A stretch of DNA of 64,000 bases from Novosphingobium sp. MW5. GTDB lineage: Bacteria; Pseudomonadota; Alphaproteobacteria; Sphingomonadales; Sphingomonadaceae. Position numbers and translations under genes: made by a program. Shown in pieces: positions 1 through 24,327 of this stretch. The stretch is from positions 1,178,001 to 1,242,000 of the forward strand of contig JAPCWB010000001.1 of the NCBI GenBank assembly GCA_025938935.1, read 5' to 3'. The notes under the pieces are model-generated. The model made no database searches. It was not told where the DNA came from and saw only the letters and a program-made list of their open reading frames with translations. The first letter of the stretch is position 1, and each line of letters begins with the position of its first letter.

Positions 1-197
1 CCCGCCATGACCTCGGCCACCGACCAGCCGAAGCTTGAGATCAGATGCGGGGCGAAGACGCCCATGGTGTAGAAGGGCAGCGGCGAAAGCCCGCAGCCGA
101 TGCCGATCAGGGCAGCGGTAACGACCTTCCAGCCGCGCCGGAATTCGCCTGGTTCCGCCCGGGCTATTTCTATCGAATCCGCCGATGTCGTCGCCAT
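1..197 (-). CDS. MFS transporter, N-terminal fragment (runs off the window)
   Basis: Read on the minus strand from an ATG at 197, the frame stays open to the window edge (65 codons). It starts MATTSADSIEIARAEPGEF, then has a basic FRRGWKVV stretch and a hydrophobic segment with GIGCGLSPLPFYTMGVF, followed by APHLISSFGWSVAEV. A short polar N-terminus, a first membrane helix and then a loop of the form 'P..i..fGWs.a.v' are typical of major facilitator transporters of the oxalate/formate or monocarboxylate antiporter type. Only the first helix and the start of the second are visible, so the substrate cannot be assigned. It is divergent from the esterase operon that starts near 365; the 167 bases between them must hold both promoters, but I recognise no specific site there. 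Confidence 0.7.
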   Translation of the reverse strand, partial: MATTSADSIEIARAEPGEFRRGWKVVTAALIGIGCGLSPLPFYTMGVFAPHLISSFGWSVAEVMA

Positions 198-364
198 GGC
201 CAATCTTCCCTTTGCCTCGCGTCCAGCAAGGGGGTGCGCAGCCCTGCGCCTCAATCGCTGCGGGAGGGGCATCCGCACAGCGGATAAACCTTTGGCCAGC
301 AGCCTGCAGTTGCCGGCATCGCGCGCAAGTTGCGTGGTCTGTCCGCGTCGCAGGAGGTTACTTG

Positions 365-1591
365 GTGTCCATGTCGCATCCCTGCAGCCTGCGTTCAGTA
401 TCGTTGACGGCTCTGCGCTGGGTCGTGGCTTTGGCCGCCATGACTGCCAGTCCCGCTGTTCTCGCTCAAACGGGTGCCCCATCGGCGGGTTGTGCCGTTC
501 CCCCGGCCTTCGGTGCGCCGCCTTATAATTCTGCGGAATTGCAGAGTGATTCGCGGATCACCTTTCGGCTCTGCGCTCCGGATTCGCGCGAAGTCATTCT
601 GGTCAGCCAGGATATGGCCGGAGTCGTTCCGACAGGCTACCCGGCCGGACAACCGTCCGGACTGGCCATGGTGCGTGCAGCCAATGGCTTGTGGAGCGTC
701 ACGACGCCCAGCGCCCTCCCGGCGGGGGTTTACCGTTATGCTTTCCGCATAGATGGCGTGCGCACATCCGATCCGCTCGCCACGCGCCATGCAGAAGACC
801 GGCGTGGCGTGTCATCGCTAATCGAGGTTCCGGGACAACCTGCCGCCTTGCACGAATGGCAGTCTGGCATTCCTCATGGCACCGTGAGCAAGGTCAATTA
901 CTGGTCGAAAGCCACGGAGGACCTGCGCCGCGCCCATGTCTACACGCCGCCCGGATATATGCGGGGCAAGGGCCGTTACCCGGTGCTTTACCTGCTCCAC
1001 GGTGCGGGGGGCAGCGACGATAGCTGGATCAGTTCGGGACGGGTGGACTTCATCCTCGACAACCTGATCGCTGCCGGAAAGGTCCGGCCGATGATTGTCG
1101 TCATGCCGCAGGGCCATACGCCGTACCGCCCAGGCGTGAGCGTGTTCAGCAACCGGGAGTTTTCCGACGACCTGCTGGGCAATCTTGTCCCATGGGTCGA
1201 TGCCAATTTTCGCACCATTCCCGGCGCGCGCAACCGGGCGATGGCGGGTGAATCGATGGGAGGGCAGCACACGCTGCATGTCGGGCTGATCCATCCGGAA
1301 GTGTTTGGCTCGATCGGCGTGTTCTCGATCGGCCTTGGCACCGGGGGCGCTGCCGAGGCCAAGGCTTTTGGCGACACCCATTCTGCCGCCTTGGCCCGGT
1401 CGGCGAAAGAACTGCGATTGATGTATATGGCCGTGGGACGCGATGACGTCGTCTATGACACCGTGGCCCCAGCGCGCGCGATGCTTGATCGGTTCGGCAT
1501 CCGGCACGTCTACCGCGAGACGGACGGTGGGCACACCTGGATCAACTGGCGCAATTACCTTGCCGACTTTACGCCAAGGCTTTTCAAGTGA
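365..1591 (+). CDS. Secreted esterase, CE1/enterochelin-esterase-like, with N-terminal E-set domain
   Basis: Alpha/beta hydrolase, about 408 residues. An export signal (hydrophobic stretch ending SPAVLAQ) is followed by an immunoglobulin-like E-set/CBM48-type region (ITFRLCAPDSREVILVSQD to about residue 150). The esterase fold then shows PVLYLLHGAGGSDDSW (oxyanion region), the nucleophile elbow GESMGG with Ser near residue 297, and a C-terminal DGGHTWINW histidine. Two-domain proteins of this type are common in xylan and plant-polysaccharide loci as acetyl or feruloyl esterases. AGGAGG at 352-357 lies seven bases before a GTG at 365; an ATG at 371 in the same frame is the alternative, while longer frames back to 185 overlap the divergent gene. 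The stop overlaps the next start (TGATG). Ester substrate unknown; periplasmic or secreted location is inferred. Confidence 0.85.
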   Translation: MSMSHPCSLRSVSLTALRWVVALAAMTASPAVLAQTGAPSAGCAVPPAFGAPPYNSAELQSDSRITFRLCAPDSREVILVSQDMAGVVPTGYPAGQPSGLAMVRAANGLWSVTTPSALPAGVYRYAFRIDGVRTSDPLATRHAEDRRGVSSLIEVPGQPAALHEWQSGIPHGTVSKVNYWSKATEDLRRAHVYTPPGYMRGKGRYPVLYLLHGAGGSDDSWISSGRVDFILDNLIAAGKVRPMIVVMPQGHTPYRPGVSVFSNREFSDDLLGNLVPWVDANFRTIPGARNRAMAGESMGGQHTLHVGLIHPEVFGSIGVFSIGLGTGGAAEAKAFGDTHSAALARSAKELRLMYMAVGRDDVVYDTVAPARAMLDRFGIRHVYRETDGGHTWINWRNYLADFTPRLFK

Positions 1592-2934
1592 TGCAGGACA
1601 ATACCTCGCAAGCATGGCGCATCCGGATCGGCTCACTGCTGGTGCCGCTCGCCCATGCGGCGGGGATGAACGTCGTCACCATGCTGGGACTGCGCTTCCT
1701 GACCGACAGCTTGGCCATTTCAGCCGGGGCGGCGGGGACGATCTTTGCGCTGGTCAAGGTCTATGACGGCCTGCTCGATCCCGCAGTAGGGGCATGGAGC
1801 GACCGGTTCCGCAGCAACTGGGGCCGGCGGCTGCCATTCCTCTTTGCCGGTGGTCTGGCCATGCCGCTGGGCCTCGCTCTGCTGTTCGGCGCGCCCTCGT
1901 TCTCCTCGCTTTTGCTGGCAGAGCTGTTTGTGGCTCTGGCGCTGGCGGTTCACGCCACCGGTTTCACCCTGCTGACCATTCCCGGCTTTGCCATGGTGGT
2001 CGAAGCCTCTGCCGACCATCATGAGCGAACCCGGCTGATGGCCTGGCGCGTCTATGGCAATTCGGCCGGGACCATGCTGGGCACAACGCTGCCCGGCTGG
2101 CTACTGGCGGGGCTGGGCCCGACGCGCGGCGGCCATTTTATCATGGCGCTGGTTGTGGGCGCTATTGTCTTCTGTGCCGCGCTGATCGCCGTCTGGCTGC
2201 TGCGCGATGCGCCGCGTACCGAGGCCGGGACTGAGACGCGCGAGCGCTACAGCCTGAAGCGGCAGGCGCGGCTGGCATGGGACAACCGCCCGTTCCGCCT
2301 GCTGGCCATCGCCCATGTCTTCCTGCTGTTCGGCACGGCGATCGGTTCGGCGGGCATGGCCTATTTCAGCCGCTATGTCCTGAAGGCGGGCGACGGCTGG
2401 CTGGGCTCCTATTTCTTTGTTGCCACAATAGCGAACCTCGTCGCTACGCCGCTCTGGGTGCGGCTTTCGCGCGTCATCGGCAAGAAGGCGGGCTACATCG
2501 CTGCCATGGCGCTTTACGGCGGCATGCACCTGCTTTGGCTGACCGCCGCCGAGGGTGAGGCGCAGTGGCTGCTTATCTTGCGCGCCGCACTGATCGGCAC
2601 CGGTGCGGCGGGCATGATCCTCTGCGCCTACTCCATGCTGTCCGACGCGGTGCGCCACGATTTTGTAAAGAGCGGTGAGCGGCGAGAGGGGGCGTTCGCC
2701 GGCTTTACCACGCTGTTCGACAAGCTTTCCGCCGCCTTTGCCCTGGCCGCAATGGGCTGGTTCCTTGCCGCCATGGGCTATGTTTCGTCGGGCGCGGGCA
2801 CTGCCGCCGCGCAGTCTGACAGCGCCGTTCTCGCCGTGCGCCTTTGCGTTTCGATCATCCCCGCTGCCGCGCTGCTTTGCGCGATACTGGCCGTCTCCCG
2901 TTACGACCTGGACCCCGAAGAGGTTGCTGCATGA
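1591..2934 (+). CDS. GPH-family sugar:cation symporter (MFS)
   Basis: Inner-membrane transporter of about 447 residues with some twelve hydrophobic segments. The N-terminal half has LVKVYDGLLDPAVGAWSDR followed by NWGRRLPFLFAGG, the conserved loop of glycoside-pentoside-hexuronide symporters (XynB/MelB type). The middle loop has the family's charged stretch (RDAPRTEAGTETRERYSLK). The ATG at 1591 overlaps the esterase stop (TGATG) and its own stop overlaps the next start (ATGA), so it is co-transcribed with two esterases and a molybdenum hydroxylase. Import of an (acylated) glycoside or glycone is the obvious role, but the substrate is not shown by the sequence. A GTG at 1588 is an alternative start one codon upstream. 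Confidence 0.85.
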   Translation: MQDNTSQAWRIRIGSLLVPLAHAAGMNVVTMLGLRFLTDSLAISAGAAGTIFALVKVYDGLLDPAVGAWSDRFRSNWGRRLPFLFAGGLAMPLGLALLFGAPSFSSLLLAELFVALALAVHATGFTLLTIPGFAMVVEASADHHERTRLMAWRVYGNSAGTMLGTTLPGWLLAGLGPTRGGHFIMALVVGAIVFCAALIAVWLLRDAPRTEAGTETRERYSLKRQARLAWDNRPFRLLAIAHVFLLFGTAIGSAGMAYFSRYVLKAGDGWLGSYFFVATIANLVATPLWVRLSRVIGKKAGYIAAMALYGGMHLLWLTAAEGEAQWLLILRAALIGTGAAGMILCAYSMLSDAVRHDFVKSGERREGAFAGFTTLFDKLSAAFALAAMGWFLAAMGYVSSGAGTAAAQSDSAVLAVRLCVSIIPAAALLCAILAVSRYDLDPEEVAA

Positions 2935-4748
2935 AAATCCGCCTTATCCCGCTTGCCCTGGCCCTGATCGCCGCTCCCGCGCTGGCAAAGTCGCAGGTCT
3001 TGCCGGTCGAGCCTGTCTGGCCGCAAGGGGTGCCCGGTGGGGCAGAGCAAGTGCGCGAGGAAGAGGATGCGGAGAAGGTGTGGAACGTCACCACGCCCAC
3101 CTATCAGGCCTTCCTGCCGCCCAAGGGCAAGGGCAACGGCGCGGCGGTGGTTGTCGCTCCCGGCGGGGGCTTTCGCCAACTTTCGATCCACAAGGAGGGT
3201 ACCGACGTCGCCCGCTGGCTCAATGATAGGGGTATCGCCGCTTTCGTCCTGAAATACCGGCTTGTCACGCGCTTGCCCGGCGAAACGCCCGAAGCACAGC
3301 GAGACCGGCTGAATGCCACCATGCGCAACGAGGATCGAGGCACCCGCGCGGCCGAGGATGGAATTCAGGCGCTTCGCCTGATCCGTGCTCGGGCGGACCG
3401 CTACGGTATCGATCCGCAGCGCATTGGCGTAGTCGGATTTTCGGCGGGTGGCCATGTCGCCGGGATGATGGCTCTGGCGCCCGAGCCCGAACGGCCTGCA
3501 TTCGCCGGGCTCATCTATGGCATGCCTTTCATCACCCCGCCGCCGCCGCTGCCTGCCGCCAATCTTCCATGGCCCGAAGGCACGCCCAAGGAGCCATGGC
3601 TGCGCCCGGTGCCGACTCCGGCACCCGGTTCCCTTCCACCCCACTTCATGGTGATCGCGCAGGATGACGAGATCGCCGGGCAGGGCTTCCGCCAGTACTA
3701 CGCCGCGATGCTGGACGCGGGCTACAAGCCCGAGGTCCACCTGTACGACAAGGGCAACCACGGCTTTGGCATGGCCAAGCGCGGGCTGACTACCGACTAC
3801 TGGATTGATGAGTTTTACTGGTGGATCCAGGCGCGCGGCTTCCTGAAGGCGCCGCCCGCTCCCCGTGTGTTCAGCGACTGCAGGGAGGACTGCCCGCAGA
3901 TGGTCGTCGTTCCCGCCGGAAAGTTCCGCATGGGCGCGGATGGGGGCGAGGAAGGCCGGCCCGAAGGCGCGCCGCACGACGTGACGATCGCCAAGCCCTT
4001 TGCCCTTGGCCGCATGGAAGTTACCAACGCGCAGTATGCGCGTTTCATCGCCGAAACCGGCCGCAAGCCGACCGGTGGATGCCGCTCATGGGATCGGGCG
4101 AGTGGAAGCGTTGTCGAACGTGCCGATGCCGATTTCCGCAAGCCCGGACTTGGTGCTGGCGACGGTGCACCCGACATTCCGGTGGTCTGCGTTTCGTGGC
4201 GCGACGCCAAGGCTTACGTTGCGTGGCTCGCGAACAAGACCGGCAAGCCCTATCGCCTGCCCAGCGAGGCGGAATGGGAATATGCCGCCCGCGCGGGTTC
4301 GCAAGAGGACTATCCCTGGGGCAAGGACCCCGCCGGGGGTTGCGGAGTGGCCAACGTGCTCGACAAGCGGGCCATCGCTTCAGGCATGCTTCCCGCTTTT
4401 CAGGAAAAGCCCGGCGCGCCGGCCCATGCGGCCTGCGACGATGCCCATGCCGGGGCCGCGCCGGTGGGCAGCTACCGGGCGAATGCCTTCGGGCTGCACG
4501 ACATGACCGGCAACGTCTGGGAATGGACCGAGGACTGCTATGTCGCGCCCTATGCCGCTGACGTGCCAACCGACGGAAGCGCCTATCAGGTGAAGGGCGA
4601 ATGCGGCCGCCGGGCCGTGCGAGGCGGCAGCTGGATGACCGTGCCCTTCCGCAACCGCCCGGCATGGCGTGGCCGGGATCCGGAAGACCAGGTCAGCTGG
4701 ATCTTCGGCATGCGGGTTGCCCGCGATCTCGATGCCAAGGGGCGCTGA
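2931..4748 (+). CDS. Fusion of BD-FAE-like alpha/beta esterase with an FGE/SUMF1-like domain
   Basis: About 605 residues in two modules. Residues 1-19 are a signal peptide (ends APALA). Residues ~45-305 are an alpha/beta hydrolase: VVVAPGGGFRQLS (HGGG-like oxyanion segment), nucleophile elbow GFSAGG (Ser171), Asp245/246 in VIAQDDE and GNHGFG (His277), as in acetyl-xylan-esterase-like BD-FAE enzymes. Residues ~320-600 are an FGE-sulfatase fold: VVVPAGKFRMG, GRMEVTNAQYARF, RLPSEAEWEYAARAG, GLHDMTGNVWEWTEDC and RAVRGGSWM. The paired cysteines of active formylglycine-generating enzymes after GGS are replaced (GGSWMTVPFRNRPAW), so this module probably binds or modifies something else rather than making formylglycine. 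The ATG at 2931 overlaps the transporter stop; longer starts would lie inside that gene. Confidence 0.85.
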   Translation: MKIRLIPLALALIAAPALAKSQVLPVEPVWPQGVPGGAEQVREEEDAEKVWNVTTPTYQAFLPPKGKGNGAAVVVAPGGGFRQLSIHKEGTDVARWLNDRGIAAFVLKYRLVTRLPGETPEAQRDRLNATMRNEDRGTRAAEDGIQALRLIRARADRYGIDPQRIGVVGFSAGGHVAGMMALAPEPERPAFAGLIYGMPFITPPPPLPAANLPWPEGTPKEPWLRPVPTPAPGSLPPHFMVIAQDDEIAGQGFRQYYAAMLDAGYKPEVHLYDKGNHGFGMAKRGLTTDYWIDEFYWWIQARGFLKAPPAPRVFSDCREDCPQMVVVPAGKFRMGADGGEEGRPEGAPHDVTIAKPFALGRMEVTNAQYARFIAETGRKPTGGCRSWDRASGSVVERADADFRKPGLGAGDGAPDIPVVCVSWRDAKAYVAWLANKTGKPYRLPSEAEWEYAARAGSQEDYPWGKDPAGGCGVANVLDKRAIASGMLPAFQEKPGAPAHAACDDAHAGAAPVGSYRANAFGLHDMTGNVWEWTEDCYVAPYAADVPTDGSAYQVKGECGRRAVRGGSWMTVPFRNRPAWRGRDPEDQVSWIFGMRVARDLDAKGR

Positions 4749-4752
4749 GGCC

Positions 4753-6939
4753 ATGGAAACTCTTGCGAAAGTTGACCGCCGCAGCCTGCTGAAGGCCCTG
4801 GGGCTTGGCGCGGGCGCCCTGGTGATCGGCGCGGGTCCGGCCGGCGCGCAGGGCGGCAGCGGAGCGCAGTTCGGCGCCATGCTGGGCATCGGCGCGGATG
4901 GCGCGGTCACGATTGTCTGCCCTTCTTCCGAGATGGGGCAGGGGACACAGGAAGCGCTGGCTCGGATCATTGCCGAAGAACTCGATTGCGATTGGGCGCA
5001 CGTAATCATCCGGCAGCCGTGGGCGGACAAGGCCTTCATCAATCCCGTGGCGAAGCGGCAACTCACCGCCAATTCGATGACCGTGACTGGCTATTACCCC
5101 GCGCTCCGGCGGCTGGGTGCTGCCGCTCGGGCAGTGCTGATCGATGCGGCGGCGGCAAAGCTGGCCGTACCCGCCAGTGAACTCTCCGCCAGCAAAGGAC
5201 AGGTGCGCCACGTATCCAGCAACCGCGTGCTTGGCTACGGCGAACTGGCGGCGGCCGCATCTGCCCTGCCGCTGCCTGCCGAACCCAAGCTCAAGATGGC
5301 CGCAGACTTTGCCCTGATCGGCAAGCGCAGTCCGCGCAAGGATCTGGCCGCCAAGGTCACGGGCCGGGCCGAATTCGGCATCGACGTGCATGAAGACGGC
5401 ATGCTGGTTGCCGCCCTCTCGCTCGGTCCGCACCGCCATGCCAAAGCCAGCGCGACCGGCATTGACGAGGCCAAGGCCATGCCGGGAGTCAAGGCAGTCG
5501 TGCCGGTGAACGGCGGCTATGCCGTGATCGCCGACCGTTTCTGGCGTGCGCGCAAGGCAGCGGAAAAGCTGCTGGTAACGGTAAGCGAATCTCCCATTGC
5601 GGGACTGGACGACGCGAAGGTGGCAGCTGCTATTTCCTCCGCCTTCGACACTGTGCCAGCCGAACCATTCCCCGATGTCGACATCGTTTCGATCCCGCAG
5701 CGCTTCACGCCCGGTAACCCCGAGGCCGTGGCCAAGGCGCTCGCCGCCGCGCCGCGCAAGCTGGAGGCCGAATATTCGGTTCCCTATCTCGCCCATGCCA
5801 CGCTTGAGCCGCTGGTCTGTTCGGCACGGCTGAAGGACGGCGAACTGCTGGTGCGCGGGCCGTTGCAGGCGCCCGAGGCATCGCGCGACATCGCCGCCAA
5901 GGTGGCCGGGCTGCCGCTCGAAAAGGTCCGGGTAGAGGTGACCTACATCGGCGGCGGGTTCGGCCGAAAGTGGTCGATCGATTTCGTCGAGGTCGCCGTG
6001 CAGGCCGCACTCGGTGCTCCCGGCCACATGGTCAAAACGATCTGGACGCGTGAGCAGGACTTCGCCCAGGACGAATTCCGCCCCGCCTTCACCGCCCGCT
6101 ACACCGCAGGCATGGCCGAGGACGGCAAGCTGCTTGCCATGGATTCGCGCATCGCAGGCCAGTCGATCAACCGCTTCCACAAGCGGAAGGGTCCGCCGGG
6201 GCAGGGCGATCCCTCTGCCGCTGCCATGCTGGTCTACGGCGTCTATGACTTCCCGGACAAGCTGATCCGCTATCACCCGGCGGATCTGTCGATCCCGGTC
6301 GGCTTCTGGCGCAGCGTCACGCTGTCGCAGAACGCCTTTTTCGCCGAATCGATGATCGACGAGGTAGCTCGCGCCGCCAAGGCCGATCCGCTCGCCTATC
6401 GCCGCGCCATGCTGGCAAAGCATCCGCGAGGGGTTGCGGTGCTGGACAAGGTGGCGGCGATGATCGGCTGGAACGCAAAACGCGCCAAGGGCCGCGGGCG
6501 CGGCGTGGCGCTCTCCTATGCGGACAATGCCTGGTGTGCGCAGGCGGTCGAAGTCTCGCTCAAGGGCAAGGCGCTGACCATCGAGCGCATTGCCTGCGCC
6601 TTCGATTGCGGCCTCGCCATCGATCCGGCGAGCGTAGAGGCACAGATGTCGGGCGGGATTATCTTCGGCCTGCAGGCGGCGCTGTGGGGTGAGGTTCACT
6701 TCGCCGATGGCGCGGTCACCAGTGCCAACTTCTCGGACTACCGCATGGCGACGCTCGCTGATGTTCCGAGGGTGGAGGTCGCCTTGCTGCACGGCTCTGA
6801 CCGGCCCGGATCGGTCGGGGAATCGGGCGTGCCCGGGATTGCCCCAGCGCTGGCCAACGCGATCGCCGACGCTGGCGGCCCGCGCATCAGGAAGCTGCCG
6901 ATCGCCAACAGTCTCGATATTCAGGAGGCCCGGGCATGA
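4753..6939 (+). CDS. Xanthine-dehydrogenase-family molybdopterin-binding large subunit (IorB-like), Tat-exported
   Basis: About 728 residues of the isoquinoline-1-oxidoreductase beta / COG1529 type. A twin-arginine signal ([17 protein letters not shown]) sits at residues 8-25, so the folded, cofactor-loaded protein should be exported to the periplasm. MoCo-pocket landmarks include [32 protein letters not shown] and, near the C-terminus, [12 protein letters not shown] with the conserved catalytic Glu (about residue 690). Members hydroxylate aldehydes or N-heterocycles using water. It starts four bases after the esterase/FGE fusion and its stop overlaps the small subunit (ATGA). No FAD subunit and no cytochrome domain are present, so electrons probably leave through the 2Fe-2S subunit to an unlinked acceptor. 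The substrate is unknown. Confidence 0.88.
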
Positions 6940-7394
6940 CCGAGCTCACCGTCAATGGCCAGGCGCGCAATGTCGATGCCGATGCCGATACGCCCCTGCT
7001 GTGGGTTTTGCGCGAGGACCTGAACCTGCCGGGCACCAAGTTCGGCTGCGGCGCGGGGCTGTGCGGGGCCTGCACTGTCCATCTCGATGGCGAGGCCGTG
7101 CGATCATGCCAGGTGCCGCTCAGCGAGGTCGGCGCGCGGAAGGTGGCGACGATCGAGTCCCTCGGCTCGGAGGAGGGCGGGCTCAGCCCGGTTCAGGCCG
7201 CATGGATTGCCGAACAGGTTCCGCAATGCGGCTATTGCCAGTCCGGCATGATCATGGCGACATCCGCCCTGCTCAAGGCCAATCCCCATCCGACCAAAGC
7301 GGAAATCCGCGCGGCGATCACCAATATCTGCCGCTGTGGCACCTATCCGCGCATTGTGGCGGCCATTGCCAGCCTGACCGGCGGCAGGGGCTGA
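6936..7394 (+). CDS. (2Fe-2S)-binding small subunit of the molybdenum hydroxylase
   Basis: 152 residues, the usual size of CoxS/IorA-type subunits. The N-terminal plant-type ferredoxin cluster reads [15 protein letters not shown], with a further Cys in AVRSCQVPL. The C-terminal second cluster has [11 protein letters not shown] and [12 protein letters not shown]. It carries no signal peptide and is presumably exported as a passenger of the Tat-tagged large subunit, with which it overlaps (ATGA at 6936-6939). It ends the five-gene operon that began at 365; the next gene is convergent on the opposite strand only six bases away. Confidence 0.93.
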
Positions 7395-7400
7395 CACGCC

Positions 7401-7871
7401 TTAGCCGGAGTGGTCCTTGATCGTCTCCATCGCGACGAAGGTGGAGGTGCTGGCCACGTGAGGAAGGCTGGTAATCCGTTCTCCCAGCACGATGCGATAG
7501 CGGCGGATGTCAGCCGTGCGCACCTTGAGCAGGTAGTCGAAGCTGCTGGCGATCATGTGGCATTCCTCGATCTCGGGAATGCGGCGCACGCCGGCGTTGA
7601 ACGCCTCGAGCGCCTGTTCGCGGGTGTCGGACAGCTTGATTTCGGTAAAGGCGACATGGTCGAGGCCCAGCTTGGCGGGATCGACCACGGCGCGAAAGCC
7701 AAGGATCACGCCGCTGTCGATCAGCTTGCGCAAGCGGACCTGGCACGGCGTCTTTGACAGGCCAACTCGCTGGGCGAGGTCGGTTACCGTGATGCGGCCG
7801 TCCTCCATAAGCACGGCGATGATCTTGCGGTCGAAGTCATCCAGATCGACCGATTTTGCGCTGCTGGGCAT
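7401..7871 (-). CDS. Lrp/AsnC-family transcriptional regulator (probable regulator of putA)
   Basis: 156 residues. The N-terminal winged helix is LDDFDRKIIAVLMEDGRIT then DLAQRVGLSKTPCQVRLRKL, the classical AsnC helix-turn-helix. The C-terminal RAM/ligand domain covers about residues 70-150 (VAFTEIKLSD, ECHMIASSFDYLLKVRT). It is divergent from putA, with 98 bases between the starts. Lrp-type activators encoded next to putA and responding to proline are well known in alphaproteobacteria (PutR), and the PutA here lacks its own DNA-binding domain, so this protein is the likely controller. A 21-base palindrome at 7892-7912 in the shared intergenic region is a candidate binding site. Confidence 0.92.
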   Translation of the reverse strand: MPSSAKSVDLDDFDRKIIAVLMEDGRITVTDLAQRVGLSKTPCQVRLRKLIDSGVILGFRAVVDPAKLGLDHVAFTEIKLSDTREQALEAFNAGVRRIPEIEECHMIASSFDYLLKVRTADIRRYRIVLGERITSLPHVASTSTFVAMETIKDHSG

Positions 7872-7891
7872 CCAGATCGCCTGTTATTGAG

Positions 7892-7912
7892 ATGAAATCA
7901 GGTCGATTTCAT
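7892..7912. promoter_or_regulatory. Palindrome in the lrp-putA intergenic region, candidate Lrp operator
   Basis: Perfect 8-base arms ATGAAATC and GATTTCAT separated by AGGTC, centred in the only non-coding stretch between the two divergent genes. Odd-spaced AT-rich dyads of about 15-21 bases are typical of Lrp/AsnC dimer sites. It lies 21 bases from the regulator start and 57 bases from the putA start, so it could serve autoregulation and putA activation at once. Assignment rests on position and symmetry only. Confidence 0.45.
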
Positions 7913-7969
7913 TTACGAAGGCACCATATTTGGTCAGGCTGACAAAGGCAAATGGGATAGGATGCTGTC

Positions 7970-10900
7970 ATGATCCAGCGCGCCCCCTTCGTCCAGTTCG
8001 CCCCCGCCATCCAACCAGCCACGCCGCTGCGCGCCGCAATCACTGGTGCCTATCGCCGCGATGAGGCCGCTTGCCTGGACCCGCTGATCGAGGCGGCGAC
8101 GCTCGATCCCGCCACGCAGGCAAAGGTCCGCGAAACAGCGCGGCTGCTGGTGACGACCCTGCGCGCCAATCACAAGGGTAGCGGCGTCGAAGGGCTGGTC
8201 CACGAATATTCGCTGTCGAGCGAGGAAGGCGTCGCGCTGATGTGCCTTGCCGAGGCCTTGCTGCGGATTCCCGACCACGCCACGCGTGATGCGCTGATCC
8301 GGGACAAGATCGTCGGCGGCGACTGGGGCTCACACCTTGGCGGGGGCAAATCGCTGTTCGTCAATGCTGCCACATGGGGACTGGTCGTGACCGGCAAGCT
8401 GGTCGACAGCGTCGATGATCGCGGTCTGGGCGCGGCGCTCCAGCGACTGGTCGCGCGCGCCGGAGAGCCGGTGATCCGCCGCGGGGTCGATCTCGCCATG
8501 CGGATGATGGGCGAACAGTTCGTCACCGGCGAGACCATAGGCGAAGCGCTCAGGCGCGCGAGGGCACTGGAGGCCAAGGGGTTCCAGCACAGCTACGACA
8601 TGCTGGGCGAAGCGGCGGCGACCATGCAGGACGCGGAGCGGTACTACCGCGATTACGAGGCCGCGATCCACGCCATCGGCAAGGCATCGAACGGGCGCGG
8701 AATCTACGGCGGGCCTGGTATTTCGATCAAGCTGTCCGCGCTCCACCCGCGCTATTCGCGGGCGCAGGCGGACCGGGTGATGGGTGAACTGCTGCCGCGC
8801 GTGAGGGCGCTGGCGGTCCTCGCCAAGGGTTACAACATCGGCTTCAACATCGATGCCGAGGAGGCAGACCGGCTTGAACTGTCTCTCGACCTGCTCGAAA
8901 GCCTTGCCCGCGATGCCGATCTCTCAGGCTGGGACGGGCTGGGCTTCGTCGTCCAGGCCTACGGCAAGCGGTGTCCCTTCGTCATCGACTGGATCGTCGA
9001 TCTGGCCCGCAGCGCCGGGCGGCGGATCATGGTGCGACTGGTCAAGGGCGCTTACTGGGATGCCGAGATCAAGCGCGCGCAGGTGGACGGGCTGGCGGAC
9101 TTTCCCGTCTACACCCGCAAGGTCCACACCGATGTCGCTTACATCGCCTGTGCAACCAAGCTGCTTGCGGCACGCGATGCCGTATTCCCCCAGTTCGCCA
9201 CGCACAACGCGCAGACGCTGGCGACGGTCTATCATCTTGCCGGACCCGACTTCAAAATCGGCGATTATGAGTTCCAGTGCCTCCACGGCATGGGCGAGCC
9301 GCTTTATGAACAGGTGGTCGGCGCAGGGAACCTCGATCGCCCCTGCCGGATCTATGCGCCGGTCGGCACGCATGAGACGCTGCTGGCCTATCTCGTCCGG
9401 CGGCTGCTGGAGAACGGGGCCAATTCCTCCTTCGTCAACCGCATCGCCGATCCGGCGGTGCCGGTCGAGGACATGATCGCCGATCCGACGGAGGTAGTGA
9501 AGGCCATGCCGAATCCGGGTGCGCGGCATGATGCGATTGCCCTGCCGGGAGACCTTTATCCGGACCGGCGCAATTCGCGGGGGATCGACCTTAGCGACGA
9601 GACAGCCCTTGCCGCGCTGGCAGGCAGCCTGCGGCAAAGCGCGGAGAATGCGTGGGAGGCCGCTCCGGCTGACGGCGCAGGACAGGCGCGGGCCGTGCTC
9701 AATCCCGCCGACCGCCGCGACCGGGTGGGCACGGTGATTGAGGCTTCGGAAGCGGCGGCGACAGAAGCGGTGGCCCGGGCGGCGGCCTCGACCTGGAGCG
9801 ATGTCCCGGTGGAGACCCGCGCCGCCATGCTGGAGCGCGCCGCCGATGCCATGCAGGAGCGGATGCCCATCCTCATCGGGCTCGCCGTTCGCGAAGCGGG
9901 CAAATCGGTGCCCAATGCCATTGCCGAAGTGCGAGAAGCCATTGATTTCCTGCGTTATTACGCGCAGCAGGCCCGCGCCAGCTTCGGACCCGAACAACAG
10001 CCGCTCGGCCCGCTGGTCTGCATCAGCCCGTGGAACTTCCCACTGGCGATCTTCACCGGACAGGTCGCCGCGGCGCTGGTCGCTGGCAACCCTGTCCTCG
10101 CCAAGCCGGCCGAGGAAACGCCGCTCATCGCCGCCGAAGCGGTGCGCCTTCTGCACGCAGCGGGAGTGCCAGCCGATGCGCTGCAACTGGTTCCGGGAGA
10201 CGGCACCATCGGCGCGGCGCTGGTCGGCGCCGCGGAGACAGCGGGGGTTCTGTTCACCGGATCGACCGAGGTCGCCCGCCTGATCCAGCGCCAGCTTTCC
10301 GCCCGCCTCTCGCCTGCCGGCAAGCCCATACCGCTCATCGCCGAAACCGGCGGTCAGAACGCGATGATCGTCGATAGCTCGGCGCTGACCGAGCAGGTCG
10401 TCGCCGATGTCATCGCCTCGGCCTTTGACAGTGCGGGCCAGCGCTGTTCGGCCCTGCGCGTGCTGTGCCTGCAGGAGGAAGTGGCCGACCGCACGCTCGC
10501 CATGCTGAAAGGCGCGCTGTCGGAAATGCGCGTGGGGCGCACCGATGCGCTAAAGGTCGATATCGGTCCGGTCATCTCTGCCGAGGCGAAGGAGACCATC
10601 GAGCAGCACTTGTCCGCCATGCGCGCAAAGGGGCGCGAGGTGGAGCAGGTCAGGCTGCCGGATGAGACTGCTCACGGTACCTTTGTCGCCCCCGCCATCA
10701 TCGAGCTGGCGTCCATCGCCGAGCTCACCCGCGAGGTTTTTGGGCCGGTACTCCATGTCGTGCGCTACGCCCGCGAGGAGCTGGGCGAACTGATCGATGT
10801 GATCAACGCCACCGGCTATGGCCTGACCTTCGGTATTCATACCCGGCTGGACGAGACGATTGCCTATGTCACCGCGCGGGTCCGGGCGGGCAACCTCTAC

Positions 10901-11578
10901 GTCAACCGCAACGTCATCGGTGCCATCGTCGGCGTGCAGCCGTTCGGCGGCCGGGGCCTTTCGGGCACGGGGCCGAAGGCGGGCGGGCCGCTTTATCTGG
11001 GGCGGCTTGTTTCAGTGCCCCCGGCACTCGGCATGACGGGCGGGCATTCACTAGCGGCCCTCAACGACTTCATCGGGTGGCTCGAGGCTAGCGGCGAGGT
11101 CGAAGCCGCCGCAACCGCGCGCCGCTATGGCGAAGCCTCACCACTTGGCGCGGAGATGGAACTGGCCGGACCGGTGGGCGAGCGCAACATCTACCAGCTC
11201 CATCCGCGCGGCCGCCTGCTGCTGCGCCCGGCGACCCGCGAGGGATTGTTCGAACAGATCGCCGCCGTGCTTGCCACCGGAAATTGCGCCACCTTGGAGG
11301 GCATGGTCCTGCCCGAAGGACTGCCCGACAGTGTGGCCCGGGTATTGCGCAGCGAGCACGCCCAGCCTTACGCTGCTGCGCTGGTCGAAGGCGGCGCTGC
11401 CCGCGTGGCCGCCATGGTCGAAACCGCGGCAGCCATGCCGGGGCCGATCTTTTCGGTCCACGCGGCGCGCGAAGGGCAGGCGCTCGCCTATCCGATGGAA
11501 TGGCTGGTGGAGGAGGTCTCGATCTCGATCAACACGGCCGCGGCGGGCGGCAATGCCAGCCTGATGATGATCGGATAG
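7970..11578 (+). CDS. putA: Bifunctional proline dehydrogenase / L-glutamate-gamma-semialdehyde dehydrogenase
   Basis: 1202 residues. It oxidises proline to glutamate in two steps with FAD (passing electrons to quinone) and NAD+. The PRODH barrel shows GGPGISIKLSALHPRYS, FVVQAYGKRCPFVIDW and MVRLVKGAYWDAEIKRAQ. The P5C dehydrogenase shows ISPWNFPLAIFTGQ, AETGGQNAMIVD, the catalytic Cys in SAGQRCSALRVL and EVFGPVLHVVRY, followed by GGRGLSGTGPKAGGP. The last ~170 residues are the ALDH-like C-terminal domain of long PutA proteins. The ribbon-helix-helix repressor domain of enteric PutA (about 1320 residues) is absent: the protein starts directly with the PRODH arm. The divergent Lrp gene probably supplies regulation. 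AGGA lies nine bases before the ATG. Confidence 0.96.
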   Translation: MIQRAPFVQFAPAIQPATPLRAAITGAYRRDEAACLDPLIEAATLDPATQAKVRETARLLVTTLRANHKGSGVEGLVHEYSLSSEEGVALMCLAEALLRIPDHATRDALIRDKIVGGDWGSHLGGGKSLFVNAATWGLVVTGKLVDSVDDRGLGAALQRLVARAGEPVIRRGVDLAMRMMGEQFVTGETIGEALRRARALEAKGFQHSYDMLGEAAATMQDAERYYRDYEAAIHAIGKASNGRGIYGGPGISIKLSALHPRYSRAQADRVMGELLPRVRALAVLAKGYNIGFNIDAEEADRLELSLDLLESLARDADLSGWDGLGFVVQAYGKRCPFVIDWIVDLARSAGRRIMVRLVKGAYWDAEIKRAQVDGLADFPVYTRKVHTDVAYIACATKLLAARDAVFPQFATHNAQTLATVYHLAGPDFKIGDYEFQCLHGMGEPLYEQVVGAGNLDRPCRIYAPVGTHETLLAYLVRRLLENGANSSFVNRIADPAVPVEDMIADPTEVVKAMPNPGARHDAIALPGDLYPDRRNSRGIDLSDETALAALAGSLRQSAENAWEAAPADGAGQARAVLNPADRRDRVGTVIEASEAAATEAVARAAASTWSDVPVETRAAMLERAADAMQERMPILIGLAVREAGKSVPNAIAEVREAIDFLRYYAQQARASFGPEQQPLGPLVCISPWNFPLAIFTGQVAAALVAGNPVLAKPAEETPLIAAEAVRLLHAAGVPADALQLVPGDGTIGAALVGAAETAGVLFTGSTEVARLIQRQLSARLSPAGKPIPLIAETGGQNAMIVDSSALTEQVVADVIASAFDSAGQRCSALRVLCLQEEVADRTLAMLKGALSEMRVGRTDALKVDIGPVISAEAKETIEQHLSAMRAKGREVEQVRLPDETAHGTFVAPAIIELASIAELTREVFGPVLHVVRYAREELGELIDVINATGYGLTFGIHTRLDETIAYVTARVRAGNLYVNRNVIGAIVGVQPFGGRGLSGTGPKAGGPLYLGRLVSVPPALGMTGGHSLAALNDFIGWLEASGEVEAAATARRYGEASPLGAEMELAGPVGERNIYQLHPRGRLLLRPATREGLFEQIAAVLATGNCATLEGMVLPEGLPDSVARVLRSEHAQPYAAALVEGGAARVAAMVETAAAMPGPIFSVHAAREGQALAYPMEWLVEEVSISINTAAAGGNASLMMIG

Positions 11579-23367: not shown

Positions 23368-24327
23368 CTACTTGCGTGACCGTACGACGCACCTGAAGCC
23401 GATGTGGCTGGTCGAGGTATCGATCATCTCGGGGTGACGCGCGGCGGGCCGGAAGCGTTGGCAGTGATTGAGCGCGCAAAGGTGCGAGCCGCCCTTGATC
23501 ACCTTGCGGCCGATGCGGACCTGCGGCTGGCTGGGGTCGAAGCTGTCCTTCAGCTTGCCCCCGCGCGGGTTCTTGGCCGCACAGCAGGACTGCCCCGGCT
23601 TCTTATCCTTCATGCCCTTTGCCGGGTTCTCCGCCCACCAGTCGGCGGTCCATTCCCAAATGTTGCCGACCATGTCGTATAGTCCATAACCGTTGGGCGG
23701 ATAGGTCCGCACCGGCGAGGTCCGCTCCCATCCGTCCTCGCGGGTGTTGGAAAAGGGAAACAAGCCCTGCCAGTAATTGGCCATCATCTTCCCGCCGGGC
23801 GCAAGTTCGTCGCCCCAGGCGAATTCCTTGCCTTCAAGCCCGCCGCGCGCGGCAAATTCGTGCTCGGCTTCGGTGGGCAGTTCCTTGCCTGCCCACTTTG
23901 CAAAGGCGGCGGCATCGCCCCATGCGACATGGACCACCGGGTGGTCCCAAAGGTCAAGCGCAGCAAGGTCACTGTCCGGCCCATAGGGGTGCCGCCAATC
24001 GGCGCCGAAGGTGAAGCTCCACCACTGGTGGTAATCGGTCAGCGGCACGGGACCCGCGGTCTTGGTGAAGACCAGCGAGCCCGGCTGCGCCAGCTCGGGG
24101 TCCATGCCGGGATAGTCCTTCGGATCGGGAGCCATCTCCGCAACAGTCTTGTGGCCTGTAGCCTCGACAAATCGGGCGAAGTCACGGTTGGTCACCGGCG
24201 TCTCGTCAATCCAGAAGCCGTCGACGGCAACCAGCCGTAGCGGGCGTTCCTCGGGATAGAAGGCTTCCGAACCCATGGTGAAGGTCCCGCCTTCGATGAA
24301 TCGCATTCCTGCGTGCAAACCGGCCAT
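23368..24327 (-). CDS. Formylglycine-generating enzyme family protein with intact active-site cysteines
   Basis: 319 residues of the SUMF1/FGE-sulfatase fold: MRFIEGGTFTMGSEAFYPEE, IDETPVTNRDFARFVEATG, HPVVHVAWGDAAAFAKWAG, LPTEAEHEFAARGG, GYGLYDMVGNIWEWTADWW and KVIKGGSHLCALNHCQRFRP. Cys284 and Cys289 in the last segment match the copper-binding pair of active FGE, which converts a sulfatase Cys to formylglycine. No signal peptide, as expected for cytoplasmic bacterial FGE. No sulfatase gene is in the window, so its client lies elsewhere. It is a single-gene unit with its own terminator. The contrast with the cysteine-less FGE-like module at 2931-4748 is clear. Confidence 0.92.
   Translation of the reverse strand: MAGLHAGMRFIEGGTFTMGSEAFYPEERPLRLVAVDGFWIDETPVTNRDFARFVEATGHKTVAEMAPDPKDYPGMDPELAQPGSLVFTKTAGPVPLTDYHQWWSFTFGADWRHPYGPDSDLAALDLWDHPVVHVAWGDAAAFAKWAGKELPTEAEHEFAARGGLEGKEFAWGDELAPGGKMMANYWQGLFPFSNTREDGWERTSPVRTYPPNGYGLYDMVGNIWEWTADWWAENPAKGMKDKKPGQSCCAAKNPRGGKLKDSFDPSQPQVRIGRKVIKGGSHLCALNHCQRFRPAARHPEMIDTSTSHIGFRCVVRSRK

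Follow-up and report, generated by a model that had tools for sequence, protein, structure and literature searches.

The window analysed here is a stretch of 64 000 nucleotides (nt) from Novosphingobium sp. MW5, corresponding to positions 1178001–1242000 of contig JAPCWB010000001.1 (C1) in a 4.0 Mb genome that is 97.3% complete and 6.5% contaminated. Near its beginning, positions 365–7394 are filled, almost without gaps, by five plus-strand genes with the layout of an operon. These encode a CE1-type esterase resembling ferulic acid esterases and predicted from its N terminus to be exported (371–1591, starting at GTG 365 or ATG 371); a GPH/MFS_2-type symporter (1588–2934, GTG start at 1588); a predicted exported fusion of a BD-FAE/CE-type esterase with a domain related to PvdO and the formylglycine-generating enzyme (FGE) (2931–4748, a single frame of 605 residues); the molybdenum (Mo)-binding large subunit of an enzyme of the IorB/xanthine oxidase family (4753–6939); and an IorA-type [2Fe–2S] small subunit (6936–7394). 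Signal peptides were read by eye from the protein sequences. An initial annotation had described an operon of five tightly overlapping genes; their number and shared direction are real, and three of the four junctions do overlap, by 4 nt each (CE1/GPH, GPH/esterase and Mo/[2Fe–2S]), whereas 4 nt separate the stop codon of the fusion gene (4746–4748) from the ATG of the Mo subunit (4753). A scan of positions 1–8100 with a sigma-70-type consensus yielded no promoter-like site (1.1 expected). The families assigned initially to the CE1-like esterase, the BD-FAE-like esterase, the symporter and the Mo enzyme are all upheld by Pfam.

The third gene had been taken for an esterase, and an esterase domain is indeed present (approximately 2994–3830; motifs GFSAGG, AQDDE and NHGF; Abhydrolase_3 and BD-FAE E-values of 1e-12 and 8e-12). 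What had been overlooked is a second domain at residues 321–598 (approximately 3876–4730), which matches PF03781 (6e-62) and carries a WRGRDP signature. Its nearest solved relative in sequence is PvdO of Pseudomonas (PDB 5hha, 7.5e-44). We modelled the domain from 36 sequences, an alignment that takes in 35 of the 80 loci L051–L130, and obtained a mean predicted local distance difference test (pLDDT) score of 90.2; a model of the whole fusion from four sequences had a mean pLDDT of 36.3 and was unusable. Foldseek placed PvdO nearest to the domain model (6e-26), and structural alignment with PvdO gave a Z-score of 34.5 with a root mean square deviation of 2.1 over 253 residues at 42% identity, with FGE chains ranking below it (Z-score 30.8–32.5). 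The domain and PvdO also share a DCxDCPEM start and other cysteines in the alignment. Against the PvdO equivalog model NF051459 in NCBIfam, the domain scores 204 bits, short of the cut-off of 500. Judged by sequence and model, the domain is PvdO-like without reaching the score of a PvdO equivalog. No pyoverdine genes were noticed around the operon, although no search for them was made.

A genome scan, of which the best 80 of 570 relatives were used, placed close relatives of the domain (at least 49% identical) on three named contigs (L051, L052 and L053); others were found in three genomes of the same family (G021, G030 and G178) and on three Novosphingobium plasmid records, two of them from N. 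humi strains. In none of nine close members, eight linked to a Mo gene and the ninth being L052, is there a cysteine in the stretch after RGGSW. The catalytic copper-binding cysteine pair of FGE presumably sits after RGGSx, and the FGE sequence 6muj shows CHDSYC at this position. The candidate function of a true FGE that matures sulfatases was therefore rejected despite the common fold, since the pair is missing from every close member, while an FGE-like open reading frame (ORF) of the same window (23368–24327, minus strand) retains it as CALNHC; that ORF lies near genes which, read by eye, look like galactose metabolism. Eight cysteines are invariant in all nine close members and present in 6–19 of 32 distant ones, depending on the position, and Gly276 of the RGRDP signature is found in nine of nine close and none of the 32 distant members. 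The subfamily is rare. Only four of 397 family genomes score above 459 bits, with the next at 290, in a scan where three of the four high scorers were already part of the query alignment, the window being the fourth, and where mostly few candidates were scored per genome. In the family to which L053 belongs, one of 189 genomes reaches 1e-60, and this is the L053 genome itself. The fusion to an esterase is likely to be local, because in N. humi the esterase and PvdO-like proteins are encoded by separate genes, 2 kb apart with two genes between them.

The fourth and fifth genes encode a predicted two-subunit Mo hydroxylase. The large subunit matches MoCoBD_1 (1e-36) and MoCoBD_2 (1e-31), has a twin-arginine (RR, Tat-like) start and contains GGGFG and GESG motifs, the glutamate of the latter being, we assume, the catalytic residue. 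The small subunit matches Fer2 (2e-10) and Fer2_2 (5e-29), with eight cysteines and no visible signal peptide. The operon has no gene for a flavin adenine dinucleotide (FAD) subunit. The two-subunit form without an FAD-subunit gene, the RR start, the MoCoBD domains with GESG and the eight-cysteine [2Fe–2S] subunit are shared with isoquinoline 1-oxidoreductase-like (IorAB-type) Mo hydroxylases, as is a small cytochrome c gene, found in the cluster in three of the eight loci that link the Mo subunit to a PvdO-like gene (L041, L044 and L053). The Mo subunit has many relatives: at a threshold of 1e-60, 124 of the 199 genomes examined in the family encode one.

The best conserved association in the operon is that of the PvdO-like domain with the Mo enzyme, rather than that of an esterase with it. 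Among nine records outside the window with a close PvdO-like relative, eight have the Mo subunit in the same cluster, and the remaining one, L052, is a contig of only 10 kb. Gene calls in these relatives come from an in-house ORF caller based on codon usage. By comparison, none of 123 loci with more distant FGE-fold genes yielded a Mo-subunit match at 1e-10, although 46 of these (L132–L177) have flanks of only about 1.5 kb and 29 of the 77 in L054–L130 are shorter than 15 kb. The order of genes around the Mo gene shifts while the link persists: the PvdO-like gene directly precedes the Mo gene in the window, in N. humi and in strain KACC 22771; it is separated from it by the GPH gene in L041, follows it in L043 and L051, and lies between the Mo and [2Fe–2S] genes in L044; in L053 it is followed by an amine oxidase and a cytochrome c gene and then the Mo gene. 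An amine oxidase is present in the cluster in four of the eight Mo-linked loci (L041, L043, L044 and L053), with an RR start visible in the ORFs called in L044 and L053. A tree built from 29 Mo subunits, 8 linked and 21 unlinked, gathers the linked ones into a single group requiring one change, recovered in 91% of 200 bootstrap trees and matched by none of 500 shuffles; its support of 88/96 falls under the level that the tool marks with a star, and terminal branches are long. We read 20 unlinked Mo loci in the family, and none had an FGE-fold gene nearby; of the 124 family genomes that encode a relative of the Mo subunit, 120 lack a close PvdO-like gene. The linked enzymes thus differ from other IorAB-type hydroxylases both in their tree group and in their partner. 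A search of open-licence papers revealed no description of the PvdO-like/Mo pair.

One explanation for such a linkage is that the PvdO-like domain assists maturation or assembly of the Mo enzyme, for instance by inserting a cofactor or forming disulphides. Its linkage with one group of Mo subunits and its eight invariant cysteines would suit this role, as would the report that PvdO was purified without detectable cofactor (PMC6206403). However, an enzyme with an RR start is expected to fold before export, most of the family Mo subunits described above have no such gene near them or in their genome, and in this operon the domain forms part of an esterase fusion. We therefore consider a maturation role improbable.

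The initial annotation had also seen the esterases and the Mo enzyme as a pair, and an exported esterase together with the Mo module does recur on the N. humi and KACC 22771 plasmids. In five (L041, L043, L044, L051 and L053) of the eight PvdO-like/Mo loci, a set that includes the window, neither esterase has a match at 1e-6 within approximately 20 kb, although L044 holds other alpha/beta hydrolase genes. The CE1 protein is absent at 1e-15 from six of nine genomes or records tested, the other three being the window's own genome, N. humi and KACC 22771, and no Mo gene lies within 20 kb of a close relative (52%) of the esterase domain in G089. By the refutation criterion given in the initial annotation itself, the esterases are separable from the Mo enzyme, and a conserved pairing of the two is not supported.

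In the scheme drawn from the same annotation, the esterases free aromatic groups, feruloyl among them, from a plant glycoside, the Mo enzyme oxidizes the aldehyde and the symporter imports the sugar. Several features of the proteins agree with this scheme. The CE1 protein (PF00756, 4e-25) is closest to solved ferulic acid esterases (6rzn and 8bbp), aligning with 6rzn (4e-72) from residue 37 to its end at residue 408 and retaining the GESMG nucleophile elbow and the DGGHTW histidine motif; no CBM48 match was found in it with Pfam at 1e-3, a domain that 6rzn presumably carries. The transporter matches MFS_2 (PF13347, 8e-77; 259 bits against a cut-off of 27), though its 191 bits for TIGR00792 fall under the trusted cut-off of 231, and the top PDB match of the Mo subunit is 8gy3, described as the large subunit of aldehyde dehydrogenase (1e-56). 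Nevertheless, ester cleavage produces acids rather than aldehydes, the operon has no glycoside hydrolase in Pfam, most of the PvdO-like/Mo loci lack either esterase, and the surrounding genes, described below, are rich in enzymes for C–N rings and amides. Unlike its solved relatives, the CE1 protein belongs to a catabolic island, in which no xylanase was noticed, none having been searched for. We found no specific support for oxidation of an aromatic aldehyde and nothing that points to sugar in particular, so this scheme seems a rather unlikely one; utilization of xylan side chains was considered too and is the less likely reading, because the island genes point to C–N chemistry.

Besides the PvdO-like domain, the initial annotation had missed the setting of the operon, which forms one end of an island spanning 80 kb or more. 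We read approximately 73 kb upstream on both strands (C1:1105001–1178197), which carry catabolic genes; C1:1105001 is the leftmost position covered. Of 80 ORFs in the upstream stretch and operon, 60 are reciprocal best hits with the N. humi plasmid NZ_CP117418, which was read over 90–200 kb (99 ORFs), the matches falling at 90–173.5 kb. The 80 include duplicates at fetch overlaps (the third operon gene twice, cut and whole, both counted in the 60, and the ORF at C1:1144690 twice) and a CE1 ORF called short. All operon proteins have their partner in this one N. humi island (CE1 50%, GPH 64%, esterase 59%, PvdO-like 66%, Mo 59% and [2Fe–2S] 67% identity), and a plasmid of KACC 22771 carries the same set. 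The island occurs on a chromosome as well as on sphingomonad megaplasmids. Its nearest relatives on named records are from Novosphingobium and, for the island core, also from Sphingobium and Sphingomonas. The open-licence papers searched do not describe this island either.

It could be argued that genes without a common substrate came together by chance at the end of the island, given that N. humi spreads the same functions over approximately 53 kb and places CE1 in a different slot. Yet each protein finds its reciprocal best hit within a single N. humi island, the genes are packed here as one operon, and an esterase and a PvdO-like protein encoded 2 kb apart in N. humi are here fused. On balance, chance assembly has a low probability.

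As far as their families can tell, the enzymes of the island are suited to opening nitrogen-containing rings and to degrading a dicarboxylic acid that is amidated and perhaps branched. They include an isochorismatase-type protein nearest to PDB 4l07, which we take to be a maleamate amidase, and to N-carbamoylsarcosine amidase; a deacetylase-fold protein nearest to PuuE allantoinase; LeuC, LeuD, HMG-CoA-lyase-like and NtaA/DmoA-type proteins above their NCBIfam subfamily cut-offs; and a PrpB-like protein with an NCBIfam match under the equivalog cut-off. Pfam matches add hydantoinase A and B, two FAD_binding_3 proteins, an M24-type protein, a TonB receptor, a luciferase-like monooxygenase and an Amdase-family protein (a family that presumably holds maleate isomerases, of which we take this to be one) and, in N. 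humi, a carbon–nitrogen hydrolase. An N-heterocyclic natural product is therefore the class of substrate we infer, and we regard it as about an even chance that the operon acts in the periplasm as the front end of an island for its catabolism.

On this front-end reading, reactions and their order would follow from the gene content, and compartments are likewise predicted, save that the Mo subunit carries a visible RR start. A natural product bearing ester groups and a nitrogen ring would enter the periplasm through the TonB-dependent receptor, where the two exported esterases could strip its acyl groups. The IorAB-type enzyme would then hydroxylate or oxidize the ring or a carbonyl group, passing electrons to cytochrome c, and the PvdO-like domain may perform or aid a further, coupled oxidation of this compound, by analogy with the action of PvdO on dihydropyoverdine. 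The GPH-type symporter would take the product inward. In the cytoplasm, PuuE-like cyclic-amide hydrolases, isochorismatase-type amidases, hydantoinase A/B, the putative maleate isomerase, LeuCD hydratases, PrpB-like and HMG-CoA-lyase-like lyases and the luciferase-type and FAD oxygenases could together open the ring and lead the carbon to central metabolism.

A number of observations weigh against this scheme. Core-island stretches from five family genomes (G056, G021, G101, G160 and G156) and from the plasmids pJE1, pTomTYG65b and pSA1 have no PvdO-like/Mo pair nearby, and in G021 the pair lies on a different contig from the core. Because of this, the pair is best described as an accessory of the island core, and the module could act on a variant of the substrate or belong to a different pathway. 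The core is marked by a methyltransferase that 37 of the 199 family genomes encode at a threshold of 1e-40. The operon itself lacks a cytochrome c gene, and in the 20 kb of L051 the Mo subunit is present but no [2Fe–2S] subunit was matched. The character of the symporter and of the CE1 esterase suits the side chains of polysaccharides or glycosides better than an alkaloid-like substrate, and several island methyltransferases with small partner proteins have no place in the scheme. Finally, PvdO is described as finishing the oxidation of dihydropyoverdine in Pseudomonas pyoverdine maturation, but even this reference protein is not proved to be an oxidase: according to PMC6206403, it was purified inactive and cofactor-free, and electron transport was not clarified.

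A bolder proposal makes the PvdO-like protein an obligate partner for a single clade of Mo hydroxylases exported by the Tat route, the two forming an undescribed periplasmic system for two-step oxidation of N-heterocycles at the head of an island whose enzymes suit pyrrole or imide substrates ending as alkyl-maleamates and, in its boldest form, tetrapyrrole breakdown products. This is possible, but we put it forward tentatively and would not expect it to hold in full. PvdO carries out a poorly understood step of pyoverdine synthesis, so a relative that is tied to a well-studied Mo family, and in this operon joined to an esterase, would offer a second system in which to learn the substrate and electron acceptor of the fold. 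If the front-end reading is true, the island would represent a complete catabolic pathway for such a compound.

A described parallel is the nicotine VPP (ndp) cluster of Sphingomonas melonis TY. By gene list, the only basis of the comparison, it shares a two-subunit nicotine hydroxylase, a 6-hydroxynicotine oxidase, a deformylase, a maleamate amidase and a maleate isomerase, and the list also names an HSP monooxygenase and a 2,5-DHP dioxygenase (PMC5343071). The amine oxidase of the L044 cluster matches 6-hydroxy-L-nicotine oxidase (2e-15). The island differs by its additional PuuE-like, LeuCD, hydantoinase and luciferase-type genes, and the main text of PMC5343071 mentions neither amine oxidase nor cytochrome c, TonB or methyltransferase. 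A link to steroidal glycoalkaloid degradation, considered for the core island on pTomTYG65b, gained no support: a term search of PMC10653915 found no mention of molybd, amine oxidase, methyltransferase or TonB. Creatinine, uracil (Rut) and caffeine-type routes were considered as well, since single enzyme types match.

Several further features were observed in and around the island. The island amine oxidases of the window's genome lie approximately 37 kb and 52 kb from the PvdO-like domain of the operon, and that of the N. humi island approximately 56 kb from its PvdO-like gene. The nearer one in the window's genome (C1:1143210–1144693; L186 18210–19693) is split into two adjacent ORFs, possibly by a frameshift in the genome or the assembly. 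The methyltransferase and its small partner (approx. 110–125 residues) occur as three island copies (C1 approx. 1105262–1106853, 1110416–1111974 and 1166219–1167630; L185 and L039); the two partner proteins tested gave no Pfam match, and some family genomes have up to six copies of such a methyltransferase. The N. humi island has a second, distant FGE-fold gene (38%) at approximately 92.9–93.8 kb of the plasmid (L220 2921–3814), some 65 kb from the Mo gene. Immediately beyond the operon, 7401–11578 encodes a divergent Lrp-type regulator and a PutA-type proline catabolic protein, which we take to be outside the island; on the other side, the 5′ end of a minus-strand MFS transporter gene (1–197, the remainder lying beyond the window) starts the divergent upstream part. 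In G030 (contig C11, L207), a second Mo/[2Fe–2S] pair with no PvdO-like gene lies near relatives (59% and 77%) of the two PuuE-like proteins of the island, which again connects Mo hydroxylases with this type of island. The core island on pSA1 of Novosphingobium resinovorum SA1 (L222) is accompanied by an amine oxidase (64%), a cytochrome c, a TonB-like receptor and a second methyltransferase/small protein pair (78% and 68%).

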